DNA of 64,000 bases from Erwinia psidii (GTDB lineage Bacteria; Pseudomonadota; Gammaproteobacteria; Enterobacterales; Enterobacteriaceae): assembly GCF_003846135.1 (NCBI RefSeq), contig NZ_RHHM01000006.1:62001-126000 (forward strand), written 5' to 3'. Shown in pieces: positions 40,391-51,717 of the stretch; within the stretch, counting starts at the first letter, position 1, and each line of letters opens with the position of its first letter. The notes under the pieces are model-generated. The model saw nothing but the letters and a program-made list of their open reading frames with translations. It did no database searches and was not told where the DNA came from. The translations under genes were made by a program, and so were the position numbers.

Positions 40391-41197
40391 TTTCTGAGCT
40401 GCCTGTACGGCAGTGAACACCACGTGCGGGACTTTTGGTCTTGATGTGTGTTTCTAAGCTGCCTGTACGGCAGTGAACGATAAAAAAACAATATTTTGAC
40501 GATGCGCTGTTTTCTAAGCTGCCTGTACGGCAGTGAACGTTCAGCAGCTGAAAAAACCTGAAACGCCGGATTTCTAAGCTGCCTGTACGGCAGTGAACCA
40601 TGGCTTCTGCAGTTGATCTGAAAATCTGTTTTTCTAAGCTGCCTGTACGGCAGTGAACGGTATGAGGCCGTATCAGCCACAGATGAAGAATTTCTAAGCT
40701 GCCTGTACGGCAGTGAACGTTTAATGTTTAAGGAGATTCTTCTGCTAATCTTTCTAAGCTGCCTGTACGGCAGTGAACTATTTTTTCACCTTCTGTTTGC
40801 GAGGCGCAATTTCTAAGCTGCCTGTACGGCAGTGAACTTAAAACAACTGTTCTCACTATGGTTTATCCATTTCTAAGCTGCCTGTACGGCAGTGAACAGT
40901 ATCAGCAGCCTTATAATCTGTTTCGAGCTTTTCTAAGCTGCCTGTACGGCAGTGAACGTCAGGGTATTCCGACAGCCTGGCCGCATGATTTTCTAAGCTG
41001 CCTGTACGGCAGTGAACACCAGCGTTATTGGTCGCCTGATGGTTCGTAATTTCTAAGCTGCCTGTACGGCAGTGAACATGGTGTTTCTGGCAATCTCCGT
41101 TTCTTTGATTTTCTAAGCTGCCTGTACGGCAGTGAACGCCTTCCTCCTTTTACTGAGCAGCCTTGCTCTTTTCTAAGCTGCCTGTACGGCAGTGAAC
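40391..41197 (-). CRISPR. CRISPR1, type I-F array, 14 repeats and 13 spacers
   Basis: The 28-bp repeat (plus-strand core CTAAGCTGCCTGTACGGCAG, in full TTTC before it and TGAAC after it) recurs every 60 bp; one unit is 59 bp because the spacer at 40779-40809 has 31 nt. Read on the minus strand this is the I-F crRNA repeat with the CTGCC/GGCAG hairpin cleaved by Cas6f. The leftmost repeat (40391-40418) has an A-to-G change, marking the trailer end. Leader and cas6f lie to the right, so transcription is leftward. Confidence 0.98.
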
Positions 41198-41325: not shown

Positions 41326-41886
41326 TCAGAACCAGGGAACCGTTGCCTGCGAACTCAAACCATAGGCGCTGAAGCGTCCGGGAACCGGCTCAGCAACCAG
41401 CGGCCCCTGTTCAATAAACAACAGAAAGGTTTGGCTGCTGGAAAGGCTTTTCAGCCGGAGATACGGCAAAGATAAGAGCCGCTCTTTGGCGTAAGGTATA
41501 CGCACCTTGGCTTCCTCTTCGCTTAACCAGCCTTTCCTTACCGAACGCCGACGCAGCCGTTCCGCGCTGCTTTGGCACTGTACCCGGCGAACAATACGGT
41601 ACTGTGCCGTCTCAGGCACCGGCAAAATACCACTGTAATCCGTATAATCAGTTAACCCCTTGCGCCAGGAGAGCGCTTCCAGACGGGAAAGTGCCGCCCG
41701 TGAGCCATGCAGCCGTATTCTGTCTCCCGGTGTGGTTGCCGCGCCCGGAAAGCTCACCCCAATGCCCCCTTCCCCGGCGCTGACCAGTGCCCGGTGCAGT
41801 TTGCTAAACAATGCTGCCATCAGCCTCGCTTCGCTTAACTCCAGGTCAGGATCGGGCAGGATGCGGATTTCAATGTAATGATCCAT
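41326..41886 (-). CDS. cas6f: Type I-F crRNA endonuclease Cas6f (Csy4)
   Basis: Cas6f cuts the pre-crRNA at the base of each repeat hairpin and stays bound to the crRNA 3' end in the Csy complex. The 186-residue protein has the family length, the N-terminal DHYIEIRILPDPDLE strand and a His in KLHRALV (about residue 30) at the place of the catalytic His. The C-terminal part contains the Arg-rich helix (SSAERLRRRSVRKGW) that reads the hairpin groove. It is last in the cas operon, eight bp after csy3. Confidence 0.97.
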   Translation of the reverse strand: MDHYIEIRILPDPDLELSEARLMAALFSKLHRALVSAGEGGIGVSFPGAATTPGDRIRLHGSRAALSRLEALSWRKGLTDYTDYSGILPVPETAQYRIVRRVQCQSSAERLRRRSVRKGWLSEEEAKVRIPYAKERLLSLPYLRLKSLSSSQTFLLFIEQGPLVAEPVPGRFSAYGLSSQATVPWF

Positions 41887-41894
41887 ACCCGCCC

Positions 41895-42899
41895 CTATTC
41901 ACCTTTTTCACCAAACACGCCACCGCGGATCAGCACGGCCATCACGTAATGCTGTTGCTCCGTCTCAGGTTTGATCCCTTTGGTCACCCAGTTATCCAGC
42001 AGCGTGTAGAAGTCCATTTTATCTTTCGGTTGGCGATATGCTTTACCGCGGCTGGTCACCGAGCCATACGGCTCAACCGCGATCGGCCCCAGTTCCAGCG
42101 TCGCCGCCGACGGATACCAGCTGTCAATGGTGCGCAGTGCATTACCCACTTTCTGTGAGTGCAATGCCGCACAGCCATCCACCTGATACAGCACTTTGCT
42201 TTTTTTACTGTTGCTGTCCAGCACCAGCTCCTGGGAAGGGAATATCTCCTGCCCTTTCCCCAGGCGCACGAAAGCATCAATACTGAAAAAAGCGAAGCTG
42301 TCCCCCGTCAGCCCCTGTTCAATTTCCCGCGCCAGTTGCGCCAGATCTCCCGCAGGCTGGCTGAATTCACGCAGGCTCAGCCGGGTACTGTCAAACTCAA
42401 AAGGTTGGCTTTTACCAGTGACACACACGCGGATTTCGTCCGCACCAACGCGGTTGCGCCACAGAAAACGGGCATTCGCCAGATTTTCCGCATAGCGGGC
42501 GGCCAGCACGCCCATCCCCTGCTCCGCGATATAGCGGTTAATCACCTCCGACAGCGCGGCCTGATATTCCTGATCGTTACAGACGGAGGGCACCGCCAGA
42601 TTACCCAGTACGCGCAGGGTGAAACTGACGTTAAGCGTGTCGGCATCAAAAGGCAGGGCGGCAATATCCACCCGCTGCAGATTGGCCTTCTGAATTTCTG
42701 CGTCCAGTTTTGCCGGATCGCTGACCAGCGCATTTTTGAGGCGATTGGAAATCGTACCGCGCACCGCCTTTTCTTTAATCTCAATCGCCTGACGCTGTTC
42801 GGGTTGTTGCCAGTTGCAGGCATACATCATCGCGTCTGAATTGGATAATTTGCGTTCGAAAGCCAGCACGGAAGCGGTTTTAATCGTTGATTTAGCCAT
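41895..42899 (-). CDS. csy3: Type I-F Cascade backbone protein Cas7f (Csy3)
   Basis: Csy3 forms the six-subunit backbone that coats the spacer part of the crRNA. The 334-residue protein has the expected length and the family opening [17 protein letters not shown], plus [10 protein letters not shown] and the [11 protein letters not shown] region. It lies 17 bp after csy2. Confidence 0.97.
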
Positions 42900-42916
42900 T
42901 CGGTTATTCCTTTACG

Positions 42917-43876
42917 TTATTCTTCGTCAATGAATTCATATGTGTCAGTGGGTGCAGACAATACAGAACAGCAACGGTACAGCCCATCCTGATAGTCATG
43001 GCACCACAGCAGTGTGTTCAGATCGGTAATCCGGTGCAGGCTTCGCCACTCACCGATGCCGTATATCGCCTCAACAAAGCGAAAAGGCGTGGCAGGATCG
43101 CGGGATTTCTCCACTTCTCCGGCGGGAAACAGCGGGGAGACGGATTGCCAGCCGGTCTGGATCGGCACCAGATAGCCCGGCTGAGGTTTGGCAACATAAC
43201 GCCACTCTGCCGGGGTTTTCGTGGAGGTGCTGGCATCGCCGTCCACCGCCAGCGCCGACATTTTGACCACGGCAAAATCCAGCCAGGCGTCGATCATTTC
43301 TGCCTGCGGATTTTGCTGCTTTAACGTCTGATAATGTTCGGAAAGACAGGCAGAGCGATCCAGTAAAGCAAACCCTGGTAGCAGACGATACAATACGCGC
43401 CGCAGTGACTTCTGCTCATGCGGATAACCGATGACTCTGGCTTCCGCCATGCTGATGACTGTGCCACCCGCCAGACGTTGCCTGACGCACAGTGTCTGAA
43501 GATGTGCCTCCAGCGCTTTTGCACCTTCCCGGCCATTCGCTATCGCCCCCTGACACTCAATTAATAAAGAGACCGTCATATGCATACGCCCCTCTTCATT
43601 GAAGGCAGCGGTTTTTGCCTCTCTGGTCAGCGGATTTCGTGTCAGCGAGAAAACCGCATCACGGCCACCGGAAGCATGGGCGTGATGCTGTTGCTGATGG
43701 CAAATCACCGCGCATTTATCCAGCGTCAGACCGTGGCTTTGCTGCAACCTGCGTGAAAGTGCGTGGGTGTACCCCAGAAAATGGGTGATGGCGGGAAACC
43801 CCCAGGTCAGCCCGGCAACGGTATTGGCGTTTTCCACACGAAGATGCCGCAACAGGATTAAACTGCTCATTGCCAT
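42917..43876 (-). CDS. csy2: Type I-F Cascade subunit Cas5f (Csy2)
   Basis: Csy2 pairs with Csy1 to hold the 5' handle of the crRNA. The 319-residue protein shows LILLRHLRVENANTVAGL followed by TWGFPAITHFLG, the typical Csy2 start, and the later LVPIQTGWQSVSPLFPAG segment. It overlaps csy1 by 10 bp. Confidence 0.97.
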   Translation of the reverse strand: MAMSSLILLRHLRVENANTVAGLTWGFPAITHFLGYTHALSRRLQQSHGLTLDKCAVICHQQQHHAHASGGRDAVFSLTRNPLTREAKTAAFNEEGRMHMTVSLLIECQGAIANGREGAKALEAHLQTLCVRQRLAGGTVISMAEARVIGYPHEQKSLRRVLYRLLPGFALLDRSACLSEHYQTLKQQNPQAEMIDAWLDFAVVKMSALAVDGDASTSTKTPAEWRYVAKPQPGYLVPIQTGWQSVSPLFPAGEVEKSRDPATPFRFVEAIYGIGEWRSLHRITDLNTLLWCHDYQDGLYRCCSVLSAPTDTYEFIDEE

Positions 43877-45219
43877 TCCTCCTTCACCGCCTGTTCAAAC
43901 TCCCGCAGCCGCTGCTTAAACAGCGATGCCGTCGACCATTCCCGCCGTTCCGTCTCGCTCATGTTCAGATCTTTATGTTTTAGCTGCCGGTTAAGCCAGA
44001 GACCAAAATCCACAGCAAGCTCTTTCTGCCATTCACCGCGTTCACGTTCGGCACAAAATTGCTCATCGCCTTTTGCCCTTCCTGGATCAAGCCACAGCTG
44101 CTGCGATCGCTTTAGCTGACAGGCGTCCTGCGCACTCCAGCCTTGCTGCATATCGTCATGCTGAACGCCAGCCGCATAGTTAAACAGCATGTCGATTATT
44201 TCATCGGTATACGCCAGCCGGCGCTGACGTATCTCCATGTTATTTGGCTGCCCTTTCACCCTGAGTAAAAATTCACGAAGTTGCCAGACAGCAGAACGGG
44301 CCATCTGGCTGAATGCGCTGTAGCGGTTAAATACCGAGGTGTGCTTTACCGGTGGTACGGGCTGGCTGTGCCAGACGGGTGCCGCACAGGAAAGCAACCA
44401 GCTCCGCCCACCCCGTACGCTGTTAAGGTAAGAGATGTTTTGTGGCCTGGAGCCGCCCGGATTTTGCGAAGCCATATTGAGGTAGCCGATCCGTGGTGCT
44501 GAATGCCAGCGTTTTTCCCTGAAAGCCGCGTTAATTTCTTTCGCGTTATCGCTGAAACGCGCCTCAACGATGCGCTGATGTAAAGCATGGGCCAGTGAAG
44601 AGGAGAACAGCGGCCCCAACAGATGATATTGATTGTCACCCACCGGAAAGTAGAGCTGTTTCGCCAGCTTATGTGAGCTGGCCTGCCTGTCGTGCAGCAC
44701 CTGCTGAAAGCCTTCCACCCACGCGGTGAGCTGCTGCTCAGATTCGGCCAGCGGCGCCAGCGGGGAATAATCGCCCCGGCTGAGCGCGGCAATTAACGAT
44801 TCGCCCTGATATTCGATCTGCAATAGTTTGGCAACATCCAGAGCCGCCGCATTGCCAACGGCATCAATCGACGGTTTGTGCAGGGTGGCGGTGGAAAGAT
44901 AGTGAGCGTCAGTTTGTCCGCTGGATGCCTCAAACCGGCTGCTGCCTTTGGCGTCACTGTGGGTAAATTTCAACGCATGGGTGACCAGGCTGATTTGACC
45001 GGCCCGACTGGCTGCATCACTCAGCCAGCGTTGCACCTCGTAACGCTGTTCAAGCTCGCGCCGCTGGCTGGCCAGGTTCTGGCGTGCCAGAGAGATTTGC
45101 GCACTGTCGCTGAGTTCAACCAGCGTCTTTTCCGCCGCTTTATCAAACGCTTCCAGCTTCGGCTGACCACGCGCCCGGATATAAGCGGTAATCAATAACG
45201 TGAATCCTTCATCCGCCAT
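43867..45219 (-). CDS. csy1: Type I-F Cascade large subunit Cas8f (Csy1)
   Basis: Csy1 recognises the CC PAM and starts target unwinding. The 450-residue protein has the family size and a NPGGSRPQNISYLNSVRGG stretch characteristic of Csy1. The ATG has AAGGAG upstream. Unlike the other cas genes it is not coupled to the preceding one: 415 bp separate it from cas2-3, and this space holds a small ORF and the repeat-like elements described separately. Confidence 0.96.
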   Translation of the reverse strand: MADEGFTLLITAYIRARGQPKLEAFDKAAEKTLVELSDSAQISLARQNLASQRRELEQRYEVQRWLSDAASRAGQISLVTHALKFTHSDAKGSSRFEASSGQTDAHYLSTATLHKPSIDAVGNAAALDVAKLLQIEYQGESLIAALSRGDYSPLAPLAESEQQLTAWVEGFQQVLHDRQASSHKLAKQLYFPVGDNQYHLLGPLFSSSLAHALHQRIVEARFSDNAKEINAAFREKRWHSAPRIGYLNMASQNPGGSRPQNISYLNSVRGGRSWLLSCAAPVWHSQPVPPVKHTSVFNRYSAFSQMARSAVWQLREFLLRVKGQPNNMEIRQRRLAYTDEIIDMLFNYAAGVQHDDMQQGWSAQDACQLKRSQQLWLDPGRAKGDEQFCAERERGEWQKELAVDFGLWLNRQLKHKDLNMSETERREWSTASLFKQRLREFEQAVKEEWQ

Positions 45220-45246
45220 GACTGGCTCCTTAAGCCTTTCCGTTAG

Positions 45247-45414
45247 CTATGATTTGTTATGGTTAAAGATGATTGAAAACATTGAAAAATTTTGCTGTTT
45301 TATCCCCACTGCTGACTCGTCGATTAATCTGAAATTGCTGACATTAGATTTAGCAAACAAGATGCACGTAGCAAGGGCAAACAACAGAAATCCCGAAATC
45401 CAGTACTTGCGCAC
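45247..45414 (-). CDS. Small membrane peptide ORF between cas2-3 and csy1 (candidate CreT-type toxin)
   Basis: An overlooked 55-codon ORF, GTG start at 45414, stop TAG at 45247-45249. AAGGA lies nine bases before the GTG. The peptide begins RKYWISGFLLFALATCILFA, a basic start plus a single transmembrane helix, followed by a polar tail rich in Asn, Ser and Phe that ends NHNKS. No family was recognised. The stop is about 28 bp before csy1. Its leader contains an 11-nt sequence, with CC in front, identical to the pseudo-spacer of the nearby degenerate mini-array. Small size, membrane helix and that target make it a candidate toxin of a CRISPR-guarded toxin-antitoxin module; a simple leader peptide is the alternative. 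Confidence 0.55.
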   Translation of the reverse strand: MRKYWISGFLLFALATCILFAKSNVSNFRLIDESAVGIKQQNFSMFSIIFNHNKS

Positions 45415-45424
45415 AAAAAACCAT

Positions 45425-45437
45425 CCTTAATAACTAC
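45425..45437 (+). promoter_or_regulatory. Putative Cascade target: CC PAM plus 11-nt seed match
   Basis: CC (45425-45426) is followed by TTAATAACTAC (45427-45437), identical to the first 11 nt after the first degenerate repeat (45591-45601). A 5' CC is the I-F PAM. Further downstream the match is lost, so binding without cleavage would be expected. The CC is the complement of the GG in the small ORF's Shine-Dalgarno. Confidence 0.65.
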
Positions 45438-45453
45438 AATCTAAAGATGTGAT

Positions 45454-45481
45454 ATTTTACACAGACAATTTTTCGCTACAA
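45454..45481 (-). promoter_or_regulatory. Candidate promoter of the small ORF and csy genes
   Basis: On the minus strand TTGTAG (45476-45481) and TAAAAT (45454-45459) are 16 bp apart. Transcription would begin near 45447, ten or so bases before the putative Cascade target. The -35 box is weak. Confidence 0.4.
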
Positions 45482-45562
45482 GTATATTTTTTGTTCATAT
45501 CAGTAAGCGTCATCTTTAAGCCCTGGTTTTCTGGAACTTCATTCTTTTTATTTGTAAAATGC

Positions 45563-45633
45563 CTGAACTGTCGTTCAGACAGCTTAGAAGTTAATAACTA
45601 CTGACTTTAACTGCCGTACAGGCAGCGGCGCAC
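45563..45633 (+). ncRNA. Degenerate I-F mini-array (crRNA-like RNA, CreA/CreR candidate)
   Basis: Read on the plus strand, 45563-45590 matches the crRNA-sense I-F repeat at 21 of 28 positions, and 45606-45633 matches at 21 of 28 with the whole 16-nt hairpin core intact. The first repeat changes both sides of the stem together (CTGTC and GACAG instead of CTGCC and GGCAG) and keeps the 5' handle as CTTAGAAG. Between them is a 15-nt pseudo-spacer, far shorter than the 32 nt of the arrays. The orientation is opposite to the cas genes and both arrays. A weak promoter-like TAAAAT lies at 45555-45560. Confidence 0.7.
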
Positions 45634-48600
45634 TCAGTCGGGTGCGCCAAACACCCCCAGCAGCGGATGGTAAAACCACCGCGTATCATCATCCTTTTCC
45701 GCCAGGCTTACCTCACCAAATCGCTGGCCCACCTGCCACAGCGGCATCTGCAACGTCTCCGCCAGGTGTTGGTACACCTGTGGATAATCCACCACTATCC
45801 AGGGACTGATCCCACTGGCAAAACCGATCTGGCATGGCTGAAAACCCGCGCTGTCTTTCCAGCAGCCGGGCAAGACGTCAGGCATTTTAAACACCGGCAG
45901 TGAGCTCTCCTCCTCAAGGCACAGGTAGTGCAGCTCTTCAGGGGCAGAGCGTCGGAACGGGGTGATCCTTTGCTGTTCACCGCTCCAGGTGGCCTGTTCC
46001 CGCCACCACTGCGCCGCGTAATAGTGATGTTGCCGCACGGGTTTGATTAGCATGGCGTAGAGTGCGGCATGTTCCAGCGCGGCTAAATTGCCTGCGGCAT
46101 CGGCCTGCGCAACCGGTTGCACCCTGGGGATGGCATTGACAATCTGATACTGAGACGGCAGCAGGATCTTACTGAGATCGTGGCTGCTCAGGGGAAAACG
46201 CGCCGATTCAAAACCAGGCCGACAGTAAGCCAACTCCATATTTTTCAACGCCCTGCGGTTTTTTTGCAGGATAAGCAGATTGGCGATATGACACGCTTCC
46301 CGGCGATGGCGCTGAATACGTCCGGCCAGCTGGATCAGTGAACGAACCGAACTGGGTTCCGCAATCGCCCAGTCGTAGTCATGATCCCGGCCGACTTCCG
46401 CAACGGAGGTGGCCAGTACCACAAACAGGTGGTGCCGTTCAGGATGGTTAAAAACAGGGCTGATGTCCGGGCGCTGCCAGATAGCCTGCGGGTCATGACG
46501 GGTCAGCGTGGCATCCAGACACTGCTCAAGGTGCGATCGCATCGCCAGCGGATGCTGACTGTGATACACGCAGTAGTGGATGTGCATATCCGCCGGTGCC
46601 GCCGTCTGCATCAGGCGTCTGGCGACCGCGACCAGCGGATCGATATTCGCCATTCGAATCAGCCCAACCGAGAGGGTTTTCCCGGACGCGTGTTGTTGAT
46701 GGTGGCAATTATGCAGCCTCTGCATGGCTGCCAGCATGGTTTCTGCCATGCTGTCCAGCACGTCCTTTTCCCGCGTGCCAGGCGCGTTGATGGCCAGCAG
46801 CTTCCCCCGGCGAAGCACCCCGACATGTTGCAATCCCCGCACCCGACGGCTGACGAAATCGCCATGATGCTGCACAAAAGCGTTAATCGGCGCAATATCG
46901 TGATGCACACAGTGATATTCATCAAACCAGGCACAGCAGATATTTACCGGAATATCCGGCTCCCCGCAGGCACGTTGATATTCTGTCCGGCCCGCCCGGT
47001 AAGCGCTGAACAGAGCCTGTACCAGCGCGGGCGGCAAGGTCGCAGAGGAGAGCAGGACCCGGCAACCCAACATGCCGGCCCAGTTCACCAAACGGCATAA
47101 CGCGGGCAGGTCGTTAATATCGAAGTCGTCAGGTTCATCCAGTACCAGGTCAGCTGTCAGTAAACGCAGCATCGGCGCGATTTGCTGACCGCCATGGGTC
47201 CCTTCCGTTGCGCCAATCAGATGATCGATGGTGCTCACCAGTACCGGCGCACTGAGCAACTGATGTAACCCCGGTGAGCGACCAAGCCAGTGACGTAAAC
47301 GCCCGTCATCAAGCGCACCGTCGTAGCGAACATACTGATGTTCAGCAAATATCGCTTCTGCATCATCCTGGCCGTTATCGGACGGAAGGGTGTTTTTTTT
47401 ATAATGCAGATCATGCAATTGCAATACCGACTGCGAGCCAATCAGGACCGCCAGATCGTCATTCTCCAGCCGCAGTTTTTCCCTCAGCGCCTCACCGGTT
47501 TGCAGCGTCAGGGTGCGAAGACCCAGGGCTACCGAAAAACGGCATCCCTGTTTTTCATCCGCCAGCGCATACATAATGCGTGCATTGGCAAAGGTTTTAC
47601 CGCAGCCGGTTGAGGCCATATTAATGCCGAAAAAACCCTGCGCCCGGCTGCGTTCACGCAACGATAAGGCCAGGTCACAGGCTTTGTCCTGCCAGCGGAA
47701 TTGCGCCAGCTTGCTGCGCTGTTTGAACCCTTTATGCCGGGTTATCGCCGGTAAGGTACTGCGTAACTGCGGCAGGCAGCGGCCAATCAGCAGGGCATTC
47801 TGACTTACACCAATATTATGTTCATCCAGCCGTTGCTTTAATGCCGTCGTCTGCCGACAGGTATTCGCCCAGGTTTTACCTTCCGGGTCCTGCCAGCCTT
47901 TGGTGGCAGGCAGCCCTGAATAATGGTGGTCGGCCAGTATCAGTACCAGCCGCGCCATATGGCTGGTGAAACGCTGCTCCAGGCCACCAGCGTCGCTCAG
48001 TGAGGGTAATTTCAGCGCACGCGCCGCGAACTTTTGCGCCTTTCCGCGCCATGTCGCGCTACGAAAAGGGGTGCCATCCGGGAAACACCAGGCGTCGGAG
48101 CGCTCCTGTTCTGTCCACGGATGCAGGTGATTGGTTGCGTTCCATTCCGCCGTCAGTTGCCCGGTGAGCCAGTCAGACATGCGCGATATATCCGGCGGGT
48201 ATTCTCCGCCAGAAGGGCTGGCAGGCAGGTGATGATGAGAAAGGATCAGCCACGCAACGGTGGTCGCCACAGGCGGTAAATTCATAAAGGGGTTTTGATA
48301 AGGAGGATCGGAGTCCTGATACAGGTTCTGCCATACCTGTTGTTCATCTGCCGCGGTGACCTTGCTGAGTGCGGTTAACCATTCGCGGTCGCTCCTGTTG
48401 CCCACCCAGGCACAGAACAGTCGCAGCGATACCCACTCGTGCCGCCAGGGCTGATAGCGTTTTCCCGTTCCCTTCAGGGTATTCTGAAACAGCGCGTTAG
48501 CCTTACCGAAATCATGAAACAGCCCCGCCAGGGCAGCCAGCAGGCTGATGCTTTCCGCACAGTGCCACCGGTCTTCATCATGCTTTTTCAGAATATCACG

Positions 48601-48882
48601 CTGCGTGCTGTGCGTTGGCACCGCGCCCTGGGTATTAAAGCGCCGCAGGTTACCCACAATCCACACCAGTTCAGTCTGATGACCGGCTTTAATCCAGTGG
48701 CAGGCCACCGCCGTATTGCGTCGCGCCGTTTTCTTCAGCAGTTTACGCAGGGTATTGAGTCCCTCCAGCGTGATCGCGGTATGCCAGGTTCTCTCGCCTT
48801 TGCGCTCAGCAAATTGATCGAGGATGCGCCTTGTCTCTGTCAGCGCCTGTTTAGTGCATTGTGACACCAGCAAAATATTCAT
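45634..48882 (-). CDS. cas3: Type I-F Cas2-Cas3 fusion nuclease-helicase
   Basis: The 1082-residue protein joins an N-terminal Cas2 domain (NILLVSQCTKQALTETRRIL, about residues 1-90) to an HD nuclease (LFHDFGKANALF, about 120) and an SF2 helicase. The helicase shows Walker A STGCGKTFANARI and the DEAH-like box LVLDEPDDFD. The C-terminal Cas3 domain follows. It degrades DNA marked by the Csy complex and joins Cas1 during spacer acquisition. It overlaps cas1 by four bp (ATGA). Its stop lies at the border of the second degenerate repeat. Confidence 0.97.
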   Translation of the reverse strand: MNILLVSQCTKQALTETRRILDQFAERKGERTWHTAITLEGLNTLRKLLKKTARRNTAVACHWIKAGHQTELVWIVGNLRRFNTQGAVPTHSTQRDILKKHDEDRWHCAESISLLAALAGLFHDFGKANALFQNTLKGTGKRYQPWRHEWVSLRLFCAWVGNRSDREWLTALSKVTAADEQQVWQNLYQDSDPPYQNPFMNLPPVATTVAWLILSHHHLPASPSGGEYPPDISRMSDWLTGQLTAEWNATNHLHPWTEQERSDAWCFPDGTPFRSATWRGKAQKFAARALKLPSLSDAGGLEQRFTSHMARLVLILADHHYSGLPATKGWQDPEGKTWANTCRQTTALKQRLDEHNIGVSQNALLIGRCLPQLRSTLPAITRHKGFKQRSKLAQFRWQDKACDLALSLRERSRAQGFFGINMASTGCGKTFANARIMYALADEKQGCRFSVALGLRTLTLQTGEALREKLRLENDDLAVLIGSQSVLQLHDLHYKKNTLPSDNGQDDAEAIFAEHQYVRYDGALDDGRLRHWLGRSPGLHQLLSAPVLVSTIDHLIGATEGTHGGQQIAPMLRLLTADLVLDEPDDFDINDLPALCRLVNWAGMLGCRVLLSSATLPPALVQALFSAYRAGRTEYQRACGEPDIPVNICCAWFDEYHCVHHDIAPINAFVQHHGDFVSRRVRGLQHVGVLRRGKLLAINAPGTREKDVLDSMAETMLAAMQRLHNCHHQQHASGKTLSVGLIRMANIDPLVAVARRLMQTAAPADMHIHYCVYHSQHPLAMRSHLEQCLDATLTRHDPQAIWQRPDISPVFNHPERHHLFVVLATSVAEVGRDHDYDWAIAEPSSVRSLIQLAGRIQRHRREACHIANLLILQKNRRALKNMELAYCRPGFESARFPLSSHDLSKILLPSQYQIVNAIPRVQPVAQADAAGNLAALEHAALYAMLIKPVRQHHYYAAQWWREQATWSGEQQRITPFRRSAPEELHYLCLEEESSLPVFKMPDVLPGCWKDSAGFQPCQIGFASGISPWIVVDYPQVYQHLAETLQMPLWQVGQRFGEVSLAEKDDDTRWFYHPLLGVFGAPD

Positions 48883-49856
48883 TTACTCACCGTGCTGAGC
48901 GAGTTTGCGCTGCGTTGCAATGCATCAATCATCACCTCAAGGGCATCCGCCTTTTGCAGGCTGCGAACGGCGCGCTGCCGGAATTCCTGTTCATCTTCCC
49001 CGGACATAGCAGCAATAAAAGCCTGCGGTAAAATAAGCGCATCCTTAATCAGGTCAGCGACGTCAAAGACCAAACCTCCACGCCGGGTTTTACCATGCAA
49101 CACCGCCAGCCCATGAGGTAAGCCGGTAACCCAACAGGCCACGGCAGCCAGTCCGTAAGCCAGGTAGTTGCCGTGATCAAGAAAACGATTAGCCACATCC
49201 ACGCCACCGCCCCGTTTTGCCCGCCTAAAACCACCATAATTTACCGTCTGCGCCGCCAGTCTGTAGAGGCCTTTGCTCATCACCGCTTCGAGTGATAACA
49301 CCTCCGATGTATGCCGGCTTTGCGATAAACCTTTTTCAAACTGAGTAAGGAGTGTGGCTAACGTTTCCTGATTGCAGGGAAACTTTCCGTCTCTGTTTAA
49401 GGCGTCACTGAGCCAGTGCCGCTCAATTTGAGCCATACGTATGCGTTGAAAAGTTTTAGCCGCCTCCAGGCGGCTGTTATCATCAAACCAGAAACTCACC
49501 CACTGTTGCAGATATTCCGTAGGGCGATATTCGCTTTGCGACGTCAGCCAGGAAACGGTGGTTTCGACCTCGTTTGCTGCATATAAAGGGGTGCCACTAC
49601 CGCCACAAAACCCAACCAGAACGCCTGCCCTGGCAAATTCACGCATCGCCGCCTGCGTGACCGAGGTTCCGGTCCCCAACATAACGACCGTGGTATTGGC
49701 GATGGGTATATTCCAGTAAAGCGATTGCCGCCCTTCTTCAGTGACATATTCAACCTTTCCACCATTCACCAGCACCCGACAATATTGCAGGTAATAAATA
49801 TTACTTCGTTTGGAATGTAGAATTGTTTTCAAATCTGAAGGTTTAACCGATTCCAA
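48879..49856 (-). CDS. cas1: CRISPR integrase Cas1 (type I-F)
   Basis: Cas1 inserts new spacers at the leader end of the arrays. The 325-residue protein has the I-F Cas1 opening DLKTILHSKRSNIYYLQYCRV (in part) and GTGTSVTQAAM. The C-terminal catalytic region shows Glu in SLEAVMSKGLYR, His in LDHGNYLAYGLAA, and Asp in VFDVADLIKDA, matching the metal-binding triad. It is the first gene of the cas operon. Confidence 0.97.
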   Translation of the reverse strand: MESVKPSDLKTILHSKRSNIYYLQYCRVLVNGGKVEYVTEEGRQSLYWNIPIANTTVVMLGTGTSVTQAAMREFARAGVLVGFCGGSGTPLYAANEVETTVSWLTSQSEYRPTEYLQQWVSFWFDDNSRLEAAKTFQRIRMAQIERHWLSDALNRDGKFPCNQETLATLLTQFEKGLSQSRHTSEVLSLEAVMSKGLYRLAAQTVNYGGFRRAKRGGGVDVANRFLDHGNYLAYGLAAVACWVTGLPHGLAVLHGKTRRGGLVFDVADLIKDALILPQAFIAAMSGEDEQEFRQRAVRSLQKADALEVMIDALQRSANSLSTVSK

Positions 49857-51089: not shown

Positions 51090-51717
51090 TTTCCGTGCTG
51101 CCTGCACGGCAGTGAACGGTGTATTTCTGTACAGGCAACATTGGGTACATTTCTAAGCTGCCTGTACGGCAGTGAACGTGGTCGAATTTATGCCCCGGCC
51201 ATTCGTCCGATTCTAAGCTGCCTGTACGGCAGTGAACTTGTCGCCTCCCTGCTCACCGGAGCGGAGCTGTTTCTAAGCTGCCTGTACGGCAGTGAACTAA
51301 TAGTGCGTAAAATTTTTAGTGTTGCTGCCTTTCTAAGCTGCCTGTACGGCAGTGAACTCTGCGATACTTTTATTAAGACTTGCTTTTGTTTTCTAAGCTG
51401 CCTGTACGGCAGTGAACATGGATCGCCGGAATCACTGGCTAGCCCTACATTTCTAAGCTGCCTGTACGGCAGTGAACCTGATGCGCGACCTTTGCAATGT
51501 TGACCTGTTTTTCTAAGCTGCCTGTACGGCAGTGAACATCTCCAGTCCGTTCATTGTCTGCTTCACCCCTTTCTAAGCTGCCTGTACGGCAGTGAACCCG
51601 ATCACCCCAGCCAGCACACTGGCAATCATTTTCTAAGCTGCCTGTACGGCAGTGAACTCTTAAATTCGTTATACGGTAAATTTGCAGAGTTTCTAAGCTG
51701 CCTGTACGGCAGTGAAC
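51090..51717 (-). CRISPR. CRISPR2, type I-F array, 11 repeats and 10 spacers
   Basis: Repeats are identical to CRISPR1 and spaced exactly 60 bp apart. The leftmost copy (51090-51117) has four substitutions, including one in the hairpin loop, and the third (51210-51237) differs at its first base; the left side is therefore the old, trailer end. The leader is at the right (51718 onward). It is transcribed leftward, i.e. in the same direction as the cas operon. Confidence 0.98.

Follow-up and report, generated by a model that had tools for sequence, protein, structure and literature searches.

The window, a 64,000-nt stretch of Erwinia psidii DNA (contig NZ_RHHM01000006.1, positions 62,001 to 126,000 of the forward strand), holds a complete type I-F cas set (cas1, cas2-3, csy1, csy2, csy3 and csy4) on the minus strand, bordered by two CRISPR arrays, in a host genome of 4.5 Mb. 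The gap between cas2-3 and csy1 measures 414 nt (45220-45633) and contains a two-repeat mini-array, a partial copy of its guide and a small open reading frame (ORF). The features, with the evidence used for each in brackets, are as follows.

40391-41197, minus: CRISPR array 1 (array search and genome repeat-pattern scan)
41326-43876, minus: csy2, csy3 and csy4/cas6f (TIGR02565, TIGR02566, TIGR02563)
43867-45219, minus: csy1 (TIGR02564)
45247-45414, minus: 55-codon ORF with GTG start, ending 27 nt ahead of csy1, its product predicted to be a membrane peptide with one span (ORF list, profiles)
45425-45437, plus: CC PAM (45425-45426) and 11-nt target (45427-45437) (genome scan, random replicas)
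45454-45459, minus: putative -10 box of a peptide/csy transcript, TAAAAT (by eye)
45476-45481, minus: putative weak -35 box, TTGTAG, 16-nt spacing (by eye)
45555-45560, plus: predicted -10 box of the mini-array, TAAAAT, 8 to 3 nt ahead of psiR1 (by eye, in agreement with the 61-locus peak)
45563-45590, plus: psiR1, a degenerate copy of the I-F repeat that has a 5-bp hairpin and, at 45583-45590, the crRNA handle CTTAGAAG (repeat comparison, CRISPR-DR4, fold)
45591-45605, plus: guide (psi-spacer), 15 nt, of which the first 11 nt match the target (sequence, random replicas)
45606-45633, plus: psiR2, hairpin retained (45611-45625), handle gone, its end adjoining the cas2-3 stop (repeat comparison, CRISPR-DR4, fold)
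45634-48882, minus: cas2-3 (TIGR02562)
48879-49856, minus: cas1 (TIGR03637)
51090-51717, minus: CRISPR array 2 (array search and genome repeat-pattern scan)

The mini-array (psiR1, spacer, psiR2) runs on the plus strand, opposite to the cas genes. Each of its repeats is identical to the array repeat at 21 of 28 positions. In a search of 501 bases with the Rfam model CRISPR-DR4, psiR1 scored 22.3 bits (E 0.023) and psiR2 20.0 bits (E 0.12), both under the gathering score of 35. The folding energy was -9.7 kcal/mol for psiR1 and -8.6 kcal/mol for both psiR2 and the array repeat, and the stem of psiR1 differs from that of the array repeat by compensated pair changes (CTGCC/GGCAG to CTGTC/GACAG). 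Scanning the genome with a repeat-like pattern at up to 3 mismatches gave 26 matches, 25 of them in the two arrays and the last one psiR1 itself. That psiR2 has a hairpin but no handle is in keeping with its place at the close of a unit with a single spacer.

The first 11 nt of the guide, TTAATAACTAC (45591-45601), are repeated exactly at 45427-45437, with CC immediately ahead. A CC-adjacent run of 11 was found in none of 20,000 random replicas built from first-order Markov models of 45220-45562 (the longest run was 10, seen once), and CC followed by 10 of the 11 target bases, position 6 being left free, occurs a single time in the 4.5-Mb genome. The ORF lies between the target and csy1, divergent from the mini-array; it has one hydrophobic stretch, and its Shine-Dalgarno sequence AAGGA (45428-45424) overlaps the PAM. 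A preliminary description of this DNA had placed two degenerate I-F repeats around a 15-nt spacer on the plus strand, an exact 11-nt guide match behind CC, and an unannotated 55-codon ORF just before csy1 with the target in its leader. All these coordinates proved correct, and the ORF is present as stated.

For comparison, we collected cas3-csy1 gaps from overlapping genome sets, in which csy1 was matched in 17/98, 10/37, 60/392, 61/394, 14/25, 8/9 and 5/6 genomes, and added 80 named loci from a Csy1-alignment search (best 80 of 571). A search with one Csy1 sequence alone found no relative, and megablast of the cas region against E. coli genomes gave no match. The loci used are a part of these matches, and nine weaker csy1 places from the 392- and 394-genome sets are not among them. 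After 13 of the 218 gathered loci had been dropped for want of a recognisable cas3 end, the remainder gave 168 distinct gaps, distinct by exact sequence only, so that near relatives are still included. The script detected a mini-array in 65 of these. None was found among the 59 gaps shorter than 60 nt or the 17 gaps of 60-150 nt; the 65 comprise 8 of the 21 gaps of 150-300 nt and 57 of the 71 that are longer. A further mini-array with a 9-nt loop, in L212, was recognized by eye and stands outside this count. Across the 65 mini-arrays the psiR1 stem takes 14 forms and is fully Watson-Crick in 56, detection itself having demanded at least 4 stem pairs. The detector also recovered the published CreTA of Acinetobacter LoGeW2-3, with 17 of 20 positions matched (mismatches at 6, 12 and 14) and a 10-aa mini-ORF; for the WCHA45 homologue of that locus, experiments showed repression by CreA that acts by way of the Csy complex (PMC10097628).

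A CC-flanked target on the same strand of its own gap was found for 56 of the 65 mini-arrays, as compared with 37 of 3690 when guides were swapped between loci; the threshold in both cases was at least 6 consecutive positions, the sixth bases (6 and 12) being ignored by the script. Over the 56 loci the match rate was 0.89-0.96 at positions 8-11 and fell at position 6 (26/56) and position 12 (15/56). In type I effectors every sixth base (6, 12) is flipped out of the guide duplex. The two dips are consistent with Csy-dependent repression by a processed RNA, and a plain duplication of the guide would not be expected to produce them. The matching mini-arrays employ 48 different 11-nt guides, and the co-variation of guide and target across related I-F loci, put forward earlier as a check, was indeed seen. 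Between loci with similar guides, the two changed jointly at 151 of 161 differing positions, which is not independent evidence because the sites were chosen by match. A same-strand site at threshold was absent in nine mini-arrays. Two of them (L076, L150) match on the opposite strand, over 8 and 11 positions; by eye, matches were also seen for L024, where position 5 is mismatched, and for the second of the L164 guides; and for L062, L100, L116, L133 and L191 no target was found. Four Escherichia loci (L049, L082, L087, L185) keep mini-array and target, co-varying at position 5, next to a small ORF of 20-27 codons.

A scan for consensus promoters and terminators found nothing within 45200-45700. 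Pooling of 61 loci gave a -10-like peak 8 to 3 nt before psiR1. On the other side of the gap, the composition just past the PAM, in csy1 direction, tends to TTGAT (38 targets). For 13 of these 38 targets, the -10 of the best promoter-like pair is about 22-26 nt beyond that point, which would bring a bound complex right up to the -35 box; for 22 the pair is found upstream and overlaps the target, and the remaining 3 have it elsewhere. Among the Erwinia loci, the distance from PAM to ORF start is no more than 20 nt; as read from the sequence, the promoter must therefore be upstream, where a bound complex would lie over the transcription start.

A predicted single-span membrane peptide of 37-58 aa is encoded between target and csy1 in 25 loci. 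Where the target lies 120-400 nt from csy1 (33 loci), a well-initiated ORF of this type was present in 18, against 0.27 expected from shuffles; the window ORF fails this automatic rule because its Shine-Dalgarno sequence spans the PAM. Fifteen of the peptides form one aligned family with a basic start, a membrane span, KP and a tail like FSIFSITINRN. Three more groups (four Photorhabdus, three Brenneria/Pectobacterium and three other Erwinia peptides) have the same layout without clear sequence similarity. Among 14 peptide pairs, which share members and were drawn from six groups, dN/dS was 0.19-0.55 in the 12 that gave a finite value; the pair of the window peptide and L029 was one of the two that did not. 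For the relatives, these values indicate a translated gene and point to a protein rather than an RNA. Conservation of the small ORF, the lack of which in close relatives had been named as a refutation, came out in favour of the module, relatives carrying a family under purifying selection. Against it, the closest relative locus, that of Erwinia mallotivora (L003/L122; 76% Csy1 identity), has a 94-nt gap without ORF, mini-array or target.

Leave-one-out profiles recovered 13 of the 15 family peptides at E 1.2e-7 or better and missed that of L076 (E 23). The window peptide, at E 0.014 and rank 17 of 2325, is weakly placed in the family and, judged by its sequence, is a divergent member. A word search of 5.8 billion proteins found no homologue of the 55-aa peptide, which also gave no Pfam family at E 1, no PADLOC family and no NCBIfam match. 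The 14-row profile found 15 public proteins, five of which equal or contain profile members; they include entries from Yersinia, Pectobacterium, Serratia and Leclercia, are hypothetical, uncharacterised or not named, and have no Pfam domains. When the profile was run over 392 whole genomes (up to 17 candidates scored per genome), all eight strong matches (E <1e-8) adjoined csy1, seven being profile members and the eighth a fragment in genome G181 (L027). A further 13 matches at E 0.001-0.01 were taken as noise. AlphaFold, given the single window sequence, returned one helix (pLDDT 80, pTM 0.36), a model not used for any conclusion.

Intact peptides, identified with the four group profiles, occur in 25 gaps, every one of which also has a mini-array, detected by script in 24 and by eye in L212. 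Two gaps that have no mini-array, those of L027 and L128, retain only a C-terminal peptide fragment. In L012 a C-terminal fragment (profile E 0.089) was seen by eye, with psiR2 adjoining the remnant tail, and L164 combines a mini-array with a short peptide form. The three cases, one of them by eye, are suggestive of truncation of the peptide where the mini-array was lost. The numbers are small, and the 25/25 pattern would fit an antitoxin that cannot be lost beside an intact peptide. The four Escherichia loci with a shortened ORF speak against a strict link.

In the light of these data, we consider the locus, with a probability of about two in three, to be a CreTA-type module that both guards the type I-F system and feeds back on it. 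We infer that the mini-array is transcribed from the plus strand and cut by Csy4 at its hairpins, giving a short crRNA-like RNA. This RNA would bring the Csy complex, by way of its 11-nt seed and the CC PAM, to the predicted peptide/csy1 promoter, and an 11-nt pairing would allow binding without calling Cas2-3. The bound complex would then repress the peptide gene together with csy1; as csy1 starts 27 nt past the peptide stop and both probably share a transcript, csy1-4 would be kept low along with it. Any shortage of complex would raise the Csy proteins and the peptide together. In a mild shortage, derepression of csy1-4 would restore the complex. Were the complex lost or blocked beyond recovery, peptide production would continue and the cell would be punished. 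The repeats, the guide-target match, the flipped-base pattern recurring in relatives and the selection on the relatives' peptides are read directly from the sequences. Guide-directed repression is held to be very probable. Toxicity of the putative toxin to its host is favoured with distinctly more reserve and is the least certain part of this explanation. The CreTA-like or autoregulatory module first suggested for this DNA is supported in that guide and target change together, the peptide family is under selection and its strong profile matches all lie beside csy1.

Modules of this kind are known. Wang et al. (2023) described one in the cas3-csy1 gap of three Acinetobacter I-F loci and reported 19 further ones identified manually (PMC10097628). 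CreT acts there as an RNA toxin and has a conserved mini-ORF of 33 bp; CreA depends on the Csy complex for its antitoxic effect, with no need of Cas1 or Cas3, and repression requires Csy4 (PMC10097628). The window locus resembles these modules in its position, in a psiR1-spacer-psiR2 element opposite to the csy1 strand, in the CC PAM, in a partial guide match, position 6 being mismatched in Acinetobacter, and in a small ORF with Shine-Dalgarno sequence downstream of the target; it differs in that the ORF has 55 codons and belongs to a membrane-peptide family whose members in relatives are selected as proteins. In the I-E CreTA of Citrobacter rodentium, a small toxin that is translated lies between cas3 and casA, the cas8 gene of that system, with an opposite-strand crRNA-like element upstream and a PAM-flanked target at the promoter (PMC12055562). 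The likeness is by description only; that system is of type I-E, and no homologues were reported for its 96-bp ORF (PMC12055562). CreR likewise directs a crRNA-like element at cas promoters and is generally uncoupled from a toxin gene (PMC12737573). CrePA shares a protein toxin (putative in the window) repressed by a crRNA-like RNA; it differs in that CreP is typically a KilA-N protein (PMC12737573), the window peptide matching no Pfam family at E 1. Work on a different I-F1 system reported that 14-nt spacers suffice for complex formation and that Cas2/3 is not triggered by shortened R-loops (PMC7296934). Given the Acinetobacter modules and the translated CreT of C. rodentium, what is likely new here is the membrane-peptide form, a conserved family under predicted Csy control. 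No membrane peptide was described for the cas3-csy1 gap in the literature searched, which did not cover the principal survey of these elements (Shmakov et al. 2023). That survey of regulatory mini-arrays is said to include the testing of a type I-F1 mini-array.

Pure autorepression of the CreR type, in which the mini-array would act on the csy1-4 promoter to tune these genes, with the small ORF encoding a harmless leader or accessory peptide, is possible, and we regard it as rather unlikely. The short distance from peptide to csy1 in the window would suit it, as would five loci of the non-peptide group (L017, L050, L051, L055, L114) with the target 59-119 nt before csy1 and no such ORF. The Escherichia loci retain the mini-array despite a shortened ORF, so repression can persist without the full peptide. 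Protein-level selection on the relatives' peptide, recurrence of its ORF far above chance and the confinement of intact copies to gaps with a mini-array speak against a harmless leader. Improbable, in turn, is a toxic RNA in the style of Acinetobacter and haloarchaea, with the ORF merely giving translation-initiation signals. The closest studied I-F module does have an RNA toxin with a 33-bp mini-ORF (PMC10097628), but the ORFs here have 37-58 codons rather than 10, their membrane span and tail motif are conserved, dN/dS in the relatives is well under 1, and the C. rodentium I-E system provides a translated CreT (PMC12055562). A decayed CRISPR array with a chance match, suggested by two degenerate repeats and a short spacer, was rejected as very unlikely in view of the random replicas, the paired changes in the psiR1 stem and the dozens of loci of the same layout whose different guides each match their own gap.

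If the CreTA-type reading holds, enterobacterial I-F systems commonly carry CRISPR addiction modules, with a conserved membrane peptide in place of the Acinetobacter-type RNA toxin, and loss of cas genes or the action of anti-CRISPR proteins becomes directly testable as a trigger of peptide toxins. The chances appear evenly balanced for the broader proposal that such guarded, translated membrane-peptide toxins are widespread in these systems, a single Csy-repressed peptide/csy1-4 promoter both refilling the complex when it is scarce and, upon gene loss or anti-CRISPR attack, killing or arresting cells unable to refill it. The repeat pair, the CC site, the free sixth bases and the KP and FSIFS motifs would provide a signature for genes now held in databases as hypothetical.

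Other arrangements were noted in the surveyed gaps. In loci from genomes of 2.2-3.1 Mb, mostly g194 (L061, L062, L064-L070, L096, L100), the mini-array shares the strand of csy1, and in most of them csy1 is preceded by a conserved ORF, about 105 codons long and with an AANDE motif, for which we found no Pfam family and a weak PADLOC match to mad1 (E 0.01). In L094 (Pantoea coffeiphila by coordinates), target and csy1 are about 1.7 kb apart, with two ORFs of 177 and 306 aa between them, which may resemble an AbiE-type toxin-antitoxin pair. The gap of L164 (Stenoxybacter acetivorans) has three repeats and two guides, the second of which matches a target by eye with a mismatch at position 12. In L151 and L211 a separate 81-aa ORF corresponds to a C-terminal piece of Cas2-3, so cas3 seems to be interrupted there. 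Finally, in the window a GC-rich inverted repeat (GGCGCAC...GTGCGCC, 45627-45648) lies directly behind psiR2 and overlaps the cas2-3 stop; comparable inverted repeats were seen at the cas3 end of many mini-array loci and also of L003, which has no mini-array.
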